This document shows, piece after piece, positions 9,673 to 28,898 of a stretch of 64,000 bases of DNA. The notes under the pieces were generated by a model. It had not been told where the DNA came from. It did no database searches and saw only the letters and a list, made by a program, of their open reading frames with translations. Every line of letters starts with the position of its first letter. Positions within the stretch are counted from its first letter, which is position 1. A program made the translations under genes and the position numbers. The stretch is from Acidobacteriota bacterium (lineage in GTDB: Bacteria > Acidobacteriota > Holophagae > Holophagales > Holophagaceae), in the NCBI GenBank assembly GCA_016213735.1, contig JACQZU010000019.1, forward strand, positions 62,001-126,000. The letters run 5' to 3'.

Positions 9673-12081
9673 GTGGCCGAAGAGTTCCCTCAAAACGTGG
9701 TTCTGGAGGAATCCCCCCGGATTCCCGAGGTTCTGCCCGTCCTTCCCTTGCGGGACCTGGTGGTCTACCCCTTCGTCATCCAGCCGTTGAGCATCAGCCG
9801 CGAGAAGTCCATCAAGGCCGTGGATGCAGCCCTGGTCGAAAACCGGATGATCCTGCTCCTTTCCCAGCGCCAGATGGAAATGGACAACCCCGGGCCCGGG
9901 GACCTCTTCCAGATCGGCACGGCCGCCCTGATCATGCGGGTCCTGAAGCTCCCCGACGGTCGGATCCGCGCCCTGGTCCAGGGCCTGCAGCGCGTCCGGG
10001 TGGAGTACTTCACCGAGACCCAGGAACTCTACCGGGCCAAGGTGGAACCCGTCCAGGAGCCGGAACGGGGCGAGCGGGATCTCGAGTACGACGCCATGAT
10101 GCGCTCCGTGAAGCAGACCCTGGAGAAAGCCGTGGCCCTCGGGAAGAACCTGCCCCAGGAGGTGCTGGTCATCGCAGGGAACCTCGACAATCCCGGACGA
10201 CTCGCGGACCTGGTGGCCTCCAACCTGGAGCTGAAGCCCCCGCAGATGCAGGAGGTCCTCGAGATCTCGGACCCCGTGCCCCGCCTGAGGAAGGTCCACG
10301 AGCTTCTCATGCGGGAACTGGATCTGCTCGAGATCCAGCAGAAGATCACCATGGAAGCCCGGGGAGAGATGGACAAGAGCCAGCGGGAGTACTACCTCCG
10401 CCAGCAACTCAAGGCCATCCAGCAGGAACTTGGCGAGGGCAACGAGCTGGCCGAGGAGATCCAGGTCTTCAGGGACAAGCTGGCCAAGCTCACGGTCCCC
10501 GAGGACGTGATGACCGAGATCGAACGGAACCTCAAGAAGCTCGAGCGGATGCACCCCGACAGCTCGGAGACCGCGGTCACCCGGACCTACCTGGAGTGGA
10601 TGACCGAGGTGCCCTGGGGCGTGACCACCCAGGACAACCACGACCTGGCCCGGGCCAAGGAGATCCTGGAGGAGGACCATTACGGCCTGGACAAGATCAA
10701 GGAGCGGCTTCTGGAGTTCCTGGCGGTCCGCAAGCTCAAGCCCGGCCAGAAGGGCACCATCCTCTGCCTGGTGGGGCCCCCGGGCACCGGGAAGACTTCC
10801 CTCGGCCGGAGCGTGGCCAGGGCCCTGGGCCGGAAATTCGCCCGGATCAGCCTGGGCGGCGTGCACGACGAAAGCGAGATCCGTGGACACCGGCGCACCT
10901 ACGTGGGCGCCATGCCCGGCCGCATCGTCCAGGCCATCCACCAGGCCAAGACCCTCAATCCTCTCATCATGCTGGACGAGGTGGACAAGATCGGCCGGGA
11001 CATGCGCGGGGACCCCAGCGCGGCGTTGCTGGAAGCCCTGGATCCCGAGCAGAACAACAGCTTCCGGGACCACTACCTCAACGTGCCGCTGGACCTCAGC
11101 CAGGTCCTCTTCATCACCAACGCCAACGAACTGGACCCCATCCACCCCGCCTTCCGGGACCGCATGGAGGTGATCCACCTTTCGAGCTACACGCTCGAGG
11201 AGAAGCTGGGCATCGCCAAACGGCACCTGATCCCGCGCCAGCTGGACAACAATGGGGTCACCGGAAAACAGTTGGGTTTCAGCGACAAGGGTCTGCGCGC
11301 CCTCATCCAGGGCTACACCCGGGAGGCGGGTCTGCGGCAGCTGGAACGCGAGATCGGTTCCGTCTCCCGGAAGATCGCCCGCAGGATCGCCGAGGGGGAG
11401 GAGGGGGTCAAATTCACCCTGACGGATCGAAACGTCCAGGACCTCCTCGGCCCCGTCAAGTTCCTCCAGGACGAACGCCTCAAGGCCCCGCGGGTGGGCG
11501 TGGTCACGGGGCTGGCCTGGACCGCCTCGGGAGGGGATGTCCTCTTCGTGGAGGCCCTCAAGATGCCGGGGAAGGGCGGCCTGCTCCTCACGGGCCAACT
11601 GGGGGACGTGATGAAGGAAAGCGCCCAGGCGGCCCTGAGCTACATCCGCAGCCGGGGCGACGCCTTCGGCATTGACGCCGAAGTATTCCAGAAGTTCGAC
11701 ATCCACATTCATTTTCCCGAGGGCGCGGTCCCCAAGGACGGGCCCAGCGCCGGCCTGACCATGGCCACGGCCCTCCTCTCGGTCCTCAAGGGCATTCCGG
11801 TGAAGAACACGGTGGCCATGACCGGGGAAATTGATCTGCGGGGCGAGGCCCTCGCCATCGGGGGCCTCAAGGAGAAGGCCCTGGCGGCGCTCCGGGTGGG
11901 GGTCTACGACATCATCCTTCCTCAAGCCAACGTCAAGGACCTGGAGGAGATTGCCCCCGAGGTTCGGCAGAAGCTGCGCTTCCACCCCATCTCCCACGTG
12001 GAGGACGTCTTCGTGTTGGCCCTCAAGGGGTGGAAAAAACCGCAAGGGAACGCTGGATCCCGGGATAAGAAAAAACCGTGA
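9673..12081 (+). CDS. lon: ATP-dependent protease La
   Basis: This 802-residue protein starts at a GTG with GAGG upstream. Lon degrades misfolded and regulatory proteins in the cytoplasm. The order is an N-terminal substrate domain ([14 protein letters not shown], residues ~20-34), coiled coil, AAA+ module (Walker [10 protein letters not shown] from 368, Walker B LDEVDKIG) and a serine protease domain with the Ser692/Lys735 dyad ([16 protein letters not shown]). The length fits LonA. A heat-shock (CIRCE-like) operator was looked for upstream and not seen. Confidence 0.97.
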
Positions 12082-12121: not shown

Positions 12122-12137
12122 TGTTCCACGTGGAACC
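12122..12137. promoter_or_regulatory. parS: parS-like site 1 (upstream of ftsY)
   Basis: TGTTCCACGTGGAACC contains the perfect 14-bp palindrome GTTCCACGTGGAAC (12123-12136). It matches the well-known chromosomal parS consensus bound by ParB, the centromere-like site near replication origins. The same 14-mer recurs at 20142 and 28884. This copy is intergenic between lon and ftsY and overlaps the region where the ftsY promoter would lie. parA and parB are not in the window. Confidence 0.85.
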
Positions 12138-19416: not shown

Positions 19417-20730
19417 CTACTTGCCCAGGCAGAAGCCGCCGAAGACCTGGTCCAGGGTGCTCTCGGCCCGGTCTTCCCCGCTGAGCCTGGTCAGAAGGGT
19501 CCAGAGGCCCTGGAGCCCGGAAGCCATGAGTTCGGCGGGGGCCCCGGGGTCCAGGGAGCGGAGGTCGCGGACCTGGCGGAGCAGTTCCGTCAGCAATTCC
19601 CGTTGTCGGGGGGTCCCCAGGGCTCCTCGGCAGGCCTCCGGGCTCAGGGGCCCCAGGAAGCGGGACCGAAGGACCCCTTCCAACCCGTCCAGATCCCCGG
19701 AGGGGGCGCAGATCCGCGGCTCGCCCTCCCAGGGTCCGGGCCCGGGGGCAAGGTCTCCGAAGGTCCGGATCACCTGGCTCCTCCCCTTGAAAGGCGCCAG
19801 CAGGTCGCGGACGAAGGGGTCCTCCGCCGCGTCCCCCGCCGGGACCAGGTGGAGGATCAGGTCGCATCCCTCCAGGAGGGGGCGGATGCGCCTCACCCCT
19901 TCCCGCTCGATGGGGTCCTCCGTATCCCGGAGGCCCGCCGTGTCGTGCAGGAGAAGGGGGAGGCCCCGCCACTCCACCTGGGCATCCAGGCTGTCCCGGG
20001 TGGTTCCGGGCTGGGGGGTCACGATGGATCTGTCCCGGCCCAGGAGGGTGTTGAACAGGGTGCTTTTCCCCGCGTTGGGCCGCCCCGCGAGCACGACGAT
20101 GATTCCGTCCCGCAGCCACCGGGCGGCCTCCGCGCGCTGTTGTTCCACGTGGAACGTTTGCTCCAGGCCCGCCAGGAATCCCCCGAGGTCCCCCGGGTCG
20201 AGGGAAAGGCCCTCCTCCTCCCCGTAGTCCACCGCGGCTTCGGCGGCGGCCACCCAGGGGCCCAGGGTCTCCCGGGCCTCCCGCAGCCAGGCGGGGAGAC
20301 CCCCCGCCGCAGCCTCCGCCTGCAGGACCTGGGCCTCGGTGGCCGCCTGGATCAGATCGCGCAGGGCCTCCGCCTGAAGGAGGTCCTGTTTCCCGTTCAG
20401 GAGGGCCCGCCGGGTGAACTCCCCGGGTTCCGCCAGCCGGATGCCCAGGCTCCCCAGGTGATCCAGGAGCCTCCGGACCAGCAGGGGGTTGCCGGGCACC
20501 TGGAGTTCCACCACGTCCTCCCCGGTGTAGCTGCGGGGCGCGGGAAAGTGGAGCACCAGCACCCTTTCCCGGAAGCCCCCCCAGGACAGTGCGCACAGCG
20601 TGGCCCGCCGGGGCGGCGGCAGGGGAAACCACCCGGACAGGCGGGGGCCGAGGGCCTCTCCGGAGATCCGGACCACCGCGAGGGCCGAGGGGAGCAGGGG
20701 CGTCGAGGGGGCGCAGATGGGGTCGCCCAC
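19417..20730 (-). CDS. mnmE: tRNA-5-carboxymethylaminomethyluridine GTPase MnmE
   Basis: This 437-residue protein is read from GTG 20730, 8 bp after the jag stop; the longer open frame overlaps jag. With MnmG it modifies wobble uridine 34 of several tRNAs. Domains are the N-terminal folate-binding part (LAVVRISGEAL; AEPGEFTRRALLNGK), a helical part and an inserted G domain (GRPNAGKSTLFN; DTAGLRDTEDPIEREG), ending in the invariant FCLGK with its catalytic cysteine. The usual IAAIAT-like start is diverged (ICAPST). The gene body contains parS site 2. mnmG is not adjacent. Confidence 0.94.
   Translation of the reverse strand: MGDPICAPSTPLLPSALAVVRISGEALGPRLSGWFPLPPPRRATLCALSWGGFRERVLVLHFPAPRSYTGEDVVELQVPGNPLLVRRLLDHLGSLGIRLAEPGEFTRRALLNGKQDLLQAEALRDLIQAATEAQVLQAEAAAGGLPAWLREARETLGPWVAAAEAAVDYGEEEGLSLDPGDLGGFLAGLEQTFHVEQQRAEAARWLRDGIIVVLAGRPNAGKSTLFNTLLGRDRSIVTPQPGTTRDSLDAQVEWRGLPLLLHDTAGLRDTEDPIEREGVRRIRPLLEGCDLILHLVPAGDAAEDPFVRDLLAPFKGRSQVIRTFGDLAPGPGPWEGEPRICAPSGDLDGLEGVLRSRFLGPLSPEACRGALGTPRQRELLTELLRQVRDLRSLDPGAPAELMASGLQGLWTLLTRLSGEDRAESTLDQVFGGFCLGK
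20141..20156. promoter_or_regulatory. parS: parS-like site 2 (inside mnmE)
   Basis: TGTTCCACGTGGAACG contains the same perfect palindrome GTTCCACGTGGAAC at 20142-20155, about 8.0 kb from site 1. It lies inside the mnmE coding sequence, where it encodes FHVEQ in the helical domain. Intragenic parS copies are normal in other chromosomes. Confidence 0.85.
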
Positions 20731-23377: not shown

Positions 23378-23406
23378 AGAATATCACCCATGGCCCCGCC
23401 TCACAA
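23378..23406 (-). promoter_or_regulatory. rpmH promoter (extended -10)
   Basis: On the minus strand TTGTGA (23406-23401) is followed by a 17-bp spacer and TATTCT (23383-23378). The -10 is preceded by TGA, giving an extended TGnTATTCT element. This is the best sigma70-type promoter seen in the window and it sits 48 bp before rpmH. Confidence 0.7.
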
Positions 23407-23442
23407 CCATCCAGAGCGCCCCTCCCGCGGCGTGCCCAGTGG

Positions 23443-23448
23443 TAGAGT
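23443..23448 (+). promoter_or_regulatory. TAGAGT promoter-like element upstream of dnaA
   Basis: GTGGTAGAGTGTTCC lies 91 bp before the dnaA ATG and is a variant of the recurrent TAGACTG motif. No -35 is evident. Confidence 0.35.
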
Positions 23449-23539
23449 GTTCCTCCCTTCCTCCCCGCCGCCTCCAGGATTCCTGGCGGGGCTTTTCCTC
23501 CCGCGCCCTCCCCACCCCTTGCAACTCCCCGGGATCGCC

Positions 23540-24910
23540 ATGCCCGCCACCGACGCCCAAAGCTTGTGGGAGACCCTTCGAAGCGGCCTGGCGGAGCGCC
23601 TCAGCGAATCCAGCTTCCGGGACTGGGTTCAGCCTTGCCGGCCCCTCAGCTTCGACGGCTCCACGCTCTGGGTCCAAGTCCCTTCCCCCTCCGCCCGCAT
23701 CTGGATCGAACAGCAGCTGGCCGAGGAATTCAACGACACCCTCGTCCAGGCGGACCTGGGGCACCTTCGCCTGGCCTTTTCGGTGGAGGAGGCTCCGGGG
23801 GCGCCCCGGCCCGCCCGCAGGGGCGCGGCGGCCCGGGCGGCCAAGGGAGAGGGCCCCGCGGATTTCCCCCAGTTGTTCCACCGCTACACCCTCGACCGCT
23901 TCGTGGTCGGTCCGGGCAGCCAGCTCGCCTTTGCCGCGGCCAAGGCGGTGGTGGACAACCACGGAAAGGCCAACGCAGGGTTCAACATGAACCCCCTCTT
24001 CGTCTACGGCGGGGCCGGCCTCGGGAAGACCCACCTCATGATCGGGATCGGGAAGGCCCTGAAGGCCCGTCACCCGGACCTGGCCGTGTGCTACCTGAAG
24101 GTTGACAGTTTCTTCCACGAGCTCACCGGGGCCATCAAGAACCGGAACACCGAGCCGCTCCGGCGGAAGTACCAGCAGAACGACGTGCTCCTCCTGGACG
24201 ACGTGCAGACCCTGCGAAGCATGGAGCGGACCCAGGAAGAGGTCTTCTACATCCTGGAGTACCTCCTCCAGAACGGCAGGCAGATCGTCATCACCTCGGA
24301 CAACCCCCCCCAGAAGCTGGAGGGGCTCCACGAGCGGCTCATCACGCGCTGCAAGTGGGGGCTCACCGCCGACATCCAGCCCCCCGATTTCGAAACCCGC
24401 ATCGCCATCCTGAAGAAGAAGCTGGAGGACGAGTTCCGGGAGCTGCCCCCCGTTCCAGAGGAGGTCCTGTCCTTCATCGCCCACAAGGCCAAGGGCAGCG
24501 TCCGGGACCTGGAAGGACTGCTGACCCGGGTGGTCTTCCAGGCGGACTTCCTGGGGGTTCCCCTGGGCCTGGAGGTGGCCCAGGTCGCGTACCAGGGGGT
24601 GAGCGGCCAGGACGCCGCGGCCCCGGTGTCCATGGAGCGCGTGTTCCGGGCCGCCGCCGAGAACTTCGGCCTGACCCTGCCGGACCTGTTGAGGAAGAAA
24701 AGCCGCCAGGCCTCGATCCTGTTGCCTCGCCAAGTGGCCATGTTCCTCGCCCGCGAGCTGACCGCCGCCTCCTTCACCGAGATCGGGCGGGCCTTCAACA
24801 ACATGCACCACAGCACGGTCATGAACGCCATCGATTCCGTGCGCCTTCGCATGCGGCGGGATCCGGATTTCCACAAGAGTGTCCACGCCCTTCTGAACAG
24901 TATCCATTGA
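23540..24910 (+). CDS. dnaA: chromosomal replication initiator DnaA with unusual DNA-binding loop
   Basis: This 456-residue protein is read from ATG 23540 ([10 protein letters not shown]). Domain I ([25 protein letters not shown]) is typical, domain II is short, and the AAA+ domain III has Walker [10 protein letters not shown] near 157, Walker [10 protein letters not shown] and [10 protein letters not shown]. Domain IV is recognisable ([25 protein letters not shown]), but the highly conserved GGRDHTTV segment that reads the DnaA box is NNMHHSTV (420-427): Arg to Met and Asp to His, with the key His424 kept. The family signature is therefore broken. It is followed by dnaN, gyrB and gyrA. Confidence 0.96.
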
Positions 24911-25135
24911 GGGCAAGGCCCTTCCTGAACCAATGCACCGATCCCCCGCCGTTCCCCCGGGCAGCCCCTGTGGGAAGGGTTCCCGGGACGACTTCACGGG
25001 CCCCGGAAGTGGGGCGTTTCCGAAGGCCTCCGGGGCATTTCCGCAGGGTATGCGGGAGGGGTTTTCCAGGTACACTGGGGACTTACAGCCCGAATCCGCA
25101 TGACTGCTCGGATATCAGCATCATCAGGGTGATCC
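24911..25135. other. dnaA-dnaN intergenic region without visible DnaA boxes
   Basis: This 225-bp region is a usual place for oriC. It is GC-rich apart from a short stretch around 25080-25130. I find no match to TTATCCACA with fewer than about three mismatches on either strand; the closest looks are TTTTCCAGG (25062) and TGTGGGAAG (24969). A TACACT element at 25071 probably serves dnaN. Confidence 0.55.
25071..25076 (+). promoter_or_regulatory. TACACT promoter-like element upstream of dnaN
   Basis: CCAGGTACACTGGGG lies 59 bp before the dnaN ATG and matches the recurrent motif. The flanking CCAG...CTGG gives it partial dyad symmetry. Confidence 0.4.
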
Positions 25136-26269
25136 ATGAACTTCAACATCCAGGTTTCCAAGGAACGATTGGATCGGGCCCTGGGAATCCTGAAACACGC
25201 CCTGGACAAGCGGGTGACCCTCCCCATCCTCCAGCACATCCTCATGGACGTGGACGATACGGAACTGAGCCTGAAGGCCACGGACATGGAGCTGGCCTTC
25301 CACGCCACCCTTCCGGTGGAAGGCAAGGGCCAGAAGACCGTGGTGGTCCCGGGGAAGAAGTTCGTGGAGACGGTCCGGGTGTATCCCGATGGAATCCTCT
25401 CCCTCGAATGGCCGGACAACACCAACCGCATGTGGCTGCGCACCCGCGGTTTCAACACGGAGCACAACATCCAGCCCGGGGAGGGGTTCCCCGACCTTCC
25501 GAGTCCGGCCCCGAGCCTTCCTTCGGTCAAGCTTCCGGTTCCCGAACTTAGGCGGGCCATTCACCTTGGCACCCTCGCGGTGAGCCGAGATGCCACGAAA
25601 CCCACGCTTTCCGCCGTGCTTCTGCACCTCTCCCGGACCTTTCTCCGGGTGGTCTCCACCGACGGATTTCGACTGGCGGTGGTGGAGGTCCCCTGCGCCA
25701 CCAGCCTGGAGACCGACGTCCGCCTGATCGTTCCGAAAAGGGCCCTGGACCTGCTCCCCGGGTCTCTCCTGGAGGATGGGGACGTCACCCTGCGGTGGGA
25801 TGCGAACACCCTCTTCCTGGACCAGGCCGGCCTCAAGGTGTCCACGCGGCTGGTCACGGGGAACTACCCCGCCTATGAAAAGGTGCTGCCAGCCGAGCTT
25901 CCGAAGAGGGTCGTGGTGGACCGGGAAGATTTCCTCCGCACGCTGCGCATCGTCGGGCTGAAGAAGGACGACTACAACAAGAACGTCAGGCTTTTCTTCG
26001 AGTTCCCGAGCCTGAAGGTGGTCTTCCAGCACCCGGACGAAGGGGTCAACCAGGGCACCCTCAGCTTCTCGGGGGAGGAGCAGTCCTTCGAGCTCGCATT
26101 CAACATCGACTACCTGACCGAGCTGCTGGAGCGGCTGCCCGGCGACGAGGTGGTCTACCAGTTCAAGGACGAAGTGGGGCAGGGGATCTTCCAGTCTCCC
26201 AGCCTGGAAGGCCTCAGCTTCCGCTACGTCCTCATGCCCGTCCGCTTCGCCAGCCCCGCGGCGGTTTAA
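25136..26269 (+). CDS. dnaN: DNA polymerase III beta subunit (sliding clamp)
   Basis: This 377-residue protein starts with the typical MNFNIQVSKERLDRALGIL. It has three repeated clamp folds and the C-terminal YVLMPVRF, where the family motif is usually YVVMPMR(L/I). It forms the ring that tethers DNA polymerase III. GTLSFSGEEQSFELAFNIDYL is also family-typical. Spacing and order (dnaA-dnaN-gyrB-gyrA, recF absent) suggest transcription continues into gyrB. Confidence 0.97.
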   Translation: MNFNIQVSKERLDRALGILKHALDKRVTLPILQHILMDVDDTELSLKATDMELAFHATLPVEGKGQKTVVVPGKKFVETVRVYPDGILSLEWPDNTNRMWLRTRGFNTEHNIQPGEGFPDLPSPAPSLPSVKLPVPELRRAIHLGTLAVSRDATKPTLSAVLLHLSRTFLRVVSTDGFRLAVVEVPCATSLETDVRLIVPKRALDLLPGSLLEDGDVTLRWDANTLFLDQAGLKVSTRLVTGNYPAYEKVLPAELPKRVVVDREDFLRTLRIVGLKKDDYNKNVRLFFEFPSLKVVFQHPDEGVNQGTLSFSGEEQSFELAFNIDYLTELLERLPGDEVVYQFKDEVGQGIFQSPSLEGLSFRYVLMPVRFASPAAV

Positions 26270-28882: not shown

Positions 28883-28898
28883 GGTTCCACGTGGAACA
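28883..28898. promoter_or_regulatory. parS: parS-like site 3 (upstream of gyrA)
   Basis: GGTTCCACGTGGAACA contains the perfect palindrome GTTCCACGTGGAAC at 28884-28897, 8.7 kb from site 2 and 12 bp before the gyrA ATG. It occupies the place where a gyrA ribosome binding site would lie, and no clear Shine-Dalgarno is left between it and the start. Confidence 0.85.

Follow-up and report, generated by a model that had tools for sequence, protein, structure and literature searches.

On balance, we favour the view that the dnaA gene of the window (the whole stretch of 64,000 nucleotides analysed here) encodes the ordinary, functional and intact initiator of a member of Holophagaceae, a family of soil and sediment bacteria, and that domain IV of this DnaA would read a slightly relaxed DnaA box. 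In the candidate DnaA boxes of Holophagaceae base 7 appears as A or G, and elsewhere nearly always as A. Judged from these target sites, box specificity does look altered, modestly and at one base, being neither broken nor replaced. TCCACA is still the commonest core in the family, three times as frequent as TCCGCA, which argues for a relaxation rather than a new box, and the protein probably continues to bind canonical boxes. An earlier prediction, made from the letters of the window, held that DnaA-box specificity is probably altered; this stands in one respect, namely the A or G found at base 7 of the target sites, but not in the sense of a replaced target, given the persistence of TCCACA.

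The DnaA Protein of the Window

The dnaA product scores 403 bits against TIGR00362 (cut-off 344), identifying it as a DnaA equivalog, together with 167 bits against PF00308 (the Bac_DnaA AAA+ domain) and 72.6 bits, above the cut-off, against PF08299 (Bac_DnaA_C). A profile search of the genome (3.59 Mb) gave one Bac_DnaA_C match, the dnaA of the window, which is thus its single DnaA. The gene order is mnmE-jag-yidC-rnpA-rpmH-dnaA-dnaN-gyrB-gyrA, the names other than dnaA having been read off translations, and the closest named relatives of the genome are Holophagaceae, Geothrix included. The AAA+ and Bac_DnaA_C domains, the fold of domain IV and the location by dnaN, gyrB and gyrA all agree with membership of the DnaA family. 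The coordinates of the features discussed are collected in Table 1.

The segment NNMHHSTV is translated in frame with the dnaA ORF and lies opposite GGRDHTTV of B. subtilis DnaA in the alignment, so that the original prediction was right to take it as real. Compared with E. coli residues 430–437, it carries R432M, D433H and T435S, with H434 and T436 kept; in place of the canonical R432/D433/H434/T435, the window protein thus has M, H, H and S. The three substitutions had been noted originally, but further changes at base-contact positions (P423 to T, L438 to M and H439 to N) had not been listed. The histidine described as “His424 kept” is indeed kept, but its number was off: it corresponds to E. 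coli H434 and to residue 425 counted from the ATG at 23537, residue 424 being the position of the D433 to H change. Contact positions including 423, 435, 438 and 439 appear in PMC5043019 and PMC7561715, and base-contact assignments rest on papers that cite Fujikawa et al. (2003). According to PMC8235120, D433 and L438 contact base 7 of the E. coli DnaA box, and D433 is highly conserved across bacterial classes, its contact distinguishing base 7, the position tied to the ATP-DnaA box phenotype.

An AlphaFold2 model of domain IV reached a pLDDT of 88.9 overall and 97–98 in the recognition helix, and Foldseek matched it to 3PVP, 1J1V and 8BTG at 1.1–1.2 Å; the helix-turn-helix is, as modelled, intact. 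That the unusual segment reflects a sequencing error or a decaying gene copy has practically no probability left: no point speaks for it, and the segment is conserved family-wide in a single-copy gene with an intact predicted fold. The earlier judgement that this is not decay is borne out by this conservation, by the single copy and by the predicted likeness to 1J1V and 3PVP, and sequencing error, which had been named as a possible refutation, is ruled out by the same form of the segment throughout Holophagaceae.

Table 1. Coordinates of the features discussed (window positions unless a contig is given).
Feature	Position	Strand	Other coordinate or locus	Remark
dnaA CDS	23537..24910	+		ORF 23390-24910, open from ATG 23390; likely start ATG 23537
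NNMHHSTV	24797..24820	+		N-terminal end of the domain IV recognition helix; equivalents of E. coli 430-437
Recognition helix of domain IV	24809..24859	+		predicted, pLDDT 96-98; runs on as ...VMNAIDSV (L438M, H439N)
ATTTCCACA within the dnaA CDS	24867..24875	+		codes for D-F-H; may be coincidental within the coding sequence
dnaA-dnaN spacer, candidate origin segment	24911..25135			TCCGCA core twice, TCCACA absent (0.09 and 0.13 expected)
DnaA-box-like ATTTCCGCA	25037..25045	+		base 7 is G, followed by G; from sequence
DnaA-box-like GAATCCGCA, dnaN-proximal box	25092..25100	+		same place in 64 Holophagaceae
dnaN	25136..26269	+		anchor used for the definition of the spacer
parS-like TGTTCCACGTGGAACC	12122..12137		C14:74122	marks origin-proximal region
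parS-like TGTTCCACGTGGAACG	20141..20156		C14:82141	
parS-like GGTTCCACGTGGAACA	28883..28898		C14:90883	
smc-linked element	G000:C28 about 10260-10455		L105, L366; also L078-L107, L333-L339	right boxes 10431-10450
pyk array	G000:C15:60829-60848		L353; also L341, L344-L346, L354-L362	

Distribution of the Recognition Segment in Acidobacteriota

Every readable DnaA segment of Holophagaceae (about 120 loci, duplicates among them) fits the form x-(M/L)-H-(H/Y)-STV, and in Geothrix and its relatives (e.g., L050–L056) the turn before the recognition helix is one residue shorter (F-NMHHSTV). GGRDHTTV had been called near-invariant, which does not hold here: KHH[ST]TV is found almost everywhere in the remaining Acidobacteriota, sampled mostly as one genome per family, and the tree of the phylum holds at least nine Thr/Ser changes at 435. 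Exceptions outside Holophagaceae are M432 in G055 and G268 and R432 in G075 (L246), along with the divergent segments FGFDHASV, a D433 form, in G062 (L250) and FNKNHATV in G112 (L264); the dnaA-dnaN spacers of these last two genomes contain neither TCCACA nor TCCGCA. As D433 to H is seen phylum-wide, the alignment indicates that this change is old and common to the phylum, and that Lys/Arg432 to Met is mainly a Holophagaceae trait. Aligning DnaA across the phylum, the check proposed originally, thus supports the R432 to M change as specific to the family, but D433 to H turns out to be the norm of the phylum and not peculiar to this DnaA.

Two observations from the same survey are recorded here. 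H434 is replaced by Y (NMHYSTV) in the DnaA of L049 (G009) and L184, the histidine being otherwise invariant. In G054 (L057), a 98%-complete genome of the same phylum, a search for DnaA at 1e-30 found nothing and Bac_DnaA_C matched only weakly (2e-9), although the DnaA of G082, from the same genus, is normal.

Candidate DnaA Boxes and the Identity of Base 7

In 64 non-redundant Holophagaceae dnaA-dnaN spacers, the six-base core and each sequence differing from it by one base were counted and compared with dinucleotide shuffles. TCCACA was found 193 times (expected 10.4) and TCCGCA 65 times, about ten times its expectation (6.5, P 1.6e-41), while, beyond TCCTCA, the 16 other one-base variants were in no significant excess in these spacers and TCCCCA occurred 8 times against 21.6 expected. 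TCCTCA was considered as a third box type and rejected, its 2.6-fold excess going with unrelated flanks (CC[AC]GGTCCTCAGCAT). The flanks are alike at TCCGCA and TCCACA sites, with G at position 10 in fractions of 0.70 and 0.71 and A/T at positions 2–3. In the aligned dnaN-proximal box, bases 4, 5, 6 and 8 are fixed (in 63–64 of the 64 spacers); at base 7, 43 spacers have A, 19 have G and 2 have T. A relaxed box TCCRCA is thus enriched, keeps its flanks and has A or G at orthologous sites, and the same alternation at base 7, with neighbouring bases fixed, recurs in three unlinked loci: the dnaN-proximal box, the pyruvate kinase array and the smc-linked element. Near dnaA in the window, no site lies within one mismatch of the canonical box TTATCCACA (TTWTNCACA). 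Comparing how often TTWTNCACA and the reversed pattern occur across the genome proved uninformative and was dropped.

The TCCGCA sites could also be low-affinity, ATP-DnaA-specific boxes such as those of E. coli or Caulobacter, the specificity of the protein being unchanged; base 7 is tied to the ATP-DnaA phenotype in PMC8235120, and the W-boxes of Caulobacter, TCCCCA, bind weakly (PMC4285127). We consider this unlikely, as the base at one and the same orthologous box is A or G depending on the genus, which would be unexpected if both bases marked separate affinity classes; A is moreover replaced by G and not by C, as the low count of TCCCCA attests, and the spacer of the window would be left with zero strong boxes.

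Residues That Track Base 7

In the phylum outside Holophagaceae, TCCGCA accounts for 33 of 173 sites in genomes with S435 against 4 of 127 in those with T435 (Fisher 1.4e-5), and a residue other than Leu at 438 goes with TCCGCA in the same way. The share of TCCGCA also climbs with spacer GC, by 0.4–0.6 logit per 10% GC, as would be expected if A7 of weakly constrained boxes decayed to G in GC-rich genomes while the protein remained unchanged. Such GC-driven drift is nonetheless a distinctly unlikely cause, since at a spacer GC of at least 0.5 the T435 clades (mean GC 0.61) retain A7, with TCCGCA at 3 of 44 sites versus 27 of 102 with S435 (p = 0.007), and since TCCGCA reaches ten times its composition-matched expectation, as no other substitution does. 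With spacer GC as a covariate (outside Holophagaceae) p was 3e-5 for S435 and 5e-5 for non-Leu438, and phylogenetic regression gave 0.02–0.04 for S435 and 0.01–0.03 for 438. The link between S435 and TCCGCA hence survives correction for GC and, weakly, for phylogeny, GC explaining part of the trend. S435 and 438 co-vary (p 0.12 and 0.07 when fitted together in the phylogenetic regression), and their effects are inseparable in these data. Within Holophagaceae, members with the one-residue-shorter turn (Geothrix and relatives) have TCCGCA at 26 of 179 sites versus 39 of 79 in those with the two-residue turn; the former being richer in TCCACA, turn length or ancestry matters as well for the TCCGCA share.

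The original prediction had attributed the change in specificity to Arg432 to Met and Asp433 to His, and D433 does contact base 7 in E. coli, according to PMC8235120, so that H433 may be a precondition. As the cause, however, this pair is very improbable: H433 is phylum-wide, including clades which keep T435 and A7 boxes, and M432 has no association with box type outside Holophagaceae (p 0.7–0.9 with phylogenetic correction). The TCCGCA share is 0.19 with K432 and S435 and 0.24 with M432 and S435, and the two genomes combining M432 with T435 have three TCCACA and zero TCCGCA (G268) and one of each (G055). R432M was therefore rejected as a specificity determinant, residue 432 having no association with box type with or without phylogenetic correction. 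The Thr to Ser change, mentioned in passing in that prediction, does track box type; its companion, non-Leu438, had been missed.

We are thus inclined, with some reserve, to an explanation in which recognition of base pair 7 has relaxed from A to purine via H433, S435 and M438, with a core T-C-C-(A/G)-C-A preceded by A/T-rich bases and followed by G. H433, in place of D433, would form a hydrogen bond with N7, which both purines have; T435 and L438, where kept, would sit against the methyl group of the thymine paired with A7, so that an A:T pair is demanded, and S435 and M438 would loosen this packing, so that a G:C pair is accepted. R432M marks the family and leaves no discernible trace in the box. 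Since D433 and L438 are described as contacting base 7 in PMC8235120, a relaxation at this base is what would be predicted for a lineage without D433 and with a variable 438.

Origin Context and Distal Box Arrays

GC skew, sampled as 20-kb stretches of the genomes of relatives, and the polarity of GGGNAGGG indicate an origin close to dnaA, with the terminus on the far side; the signal is clear in G003 and noisier in G034 and G014. Sites resembling parS (TGTTCCACGTGGAAC[A/C/G]) surround dnaA in the seven of seven Holophagaceae genomes searched, no farther than about 20 kb away in G000 and most of its relatives, and no farther than about 110 kb in any of the seven. No clearly AT-rich stretch was found near dnaA in this GC-rich genome (positions 24911–25135 and the whole window; at most 49% AT per 120 bp), nor a duplex-unwinding element there.

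A conserved smc-linked element of 192–196 bp has CGAAAGAAA and a DnaA-like box in inverted orientation, a middle part rich in AT, and AATCC(A/G)CA in tandem with TTTTCCACA at fixed spacing. It lies 3' of smc in many Holophagaceae, whatever the next gene, and at other locations in others; it had no match over the gathering score in Rfam. Its AT-rich character and inverted TTTTCCACA boxes led us to consider it as oriC, which was rejected: skew, polarity and parS put the origin near dnaA, and the element, at some 70–80% of the origin-to-terminus distance in the three genomes sampled, is thus distal. It is a candidate datA/DARS-like or other DnaA-binding element. Furthermore, three head-to-tail DnaA-like boxes precede the pyruvate kinase gene and are kept across Holophagaceae genera, sharing the gap with a divergent small gene whose translation (...NQSAAARSLGIHRNTLSKKL) suggests, by eye, a Fis-like helix-turn-helix. 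The third box of this pyk array reads TTTTCCACA in seven genomes, TTTTCCGCA in six and ATTTCCACA in one. For both arrays we can guess at roles in titrating or reactivating DnaA or in controlling a promoter, and binding of DnaA at the spacer, smc-linked and pyk sites is assumed from their sequence.

A wider scenario, which we put forward tentatively and with considerable doubt, would join a phylum-wide D433 to H switch in the base-7 contact with recurrent Thr/Ser exchanges at 435 and substitutions at 438, by which the box would be set to A7 only or to A/G7. Holophagaceae would apply the relaxed code across a network of conserved arrays (the origin, the pyk-Fis-like triple array and the distal, fixed-geometry datA/DARS-like element). 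If true, box position 7, the reported discriminator between ADP- and ATP-DnaA, would be set by the lineage of the protein. A whole phylum with His at 433, recurrent Thr/Ser exchanges at 435 and matching shifts in the targets is in itself a natural experiment in the joint evolution of an essential initiator and its sites. Origin finders relying on TTATCCACA will miss boxes in these genomes.

Comparison With Known Systems

Domain IV of E. coli DnaA on an R-type box (1J1V) resembles the window protein in its fold (1.1 Å over 93 columns), in R399, H434 and T436, and in the TCC-CA of the box; the Holophagaceae protein differs by P423T, R432M, D433H, T435S, L438M and H439N, and by A or G at base 7. 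The DNA-binding domain of M. tuberculosis DnaA (3PVP) and that of Streptomyces, with the box TTGTCCACA, share the fold and the setting of a GC-rich genome with an adapted box, but their adaptation to GC is at box position 3, with A7 kept (PMC4285127), whereas Holophagaceae show theirs at position 7. The DnaA of Epsilonproteobacteria (H. pylori, A. butzleri), with TTCAC as box core, likewise couples a lineage-specific recognition helix, with Ser435 and changed 438–439, to a lineage-specific box (PMC5043019); it reads T at base 5 and keeps the D433-H434 pair, in contrast to the C at base 5 and the His433 of Holophagaceae. Finally, the W-boxes of Caulobacter (TCCCCA) and other ATP-DnaA boxes share a base other than A at position 7, although in W-boxes this base is C, in a weak class of boxes within a single origin, while in Holophagaceae orthologous sites carry G in some genomes and A in others.
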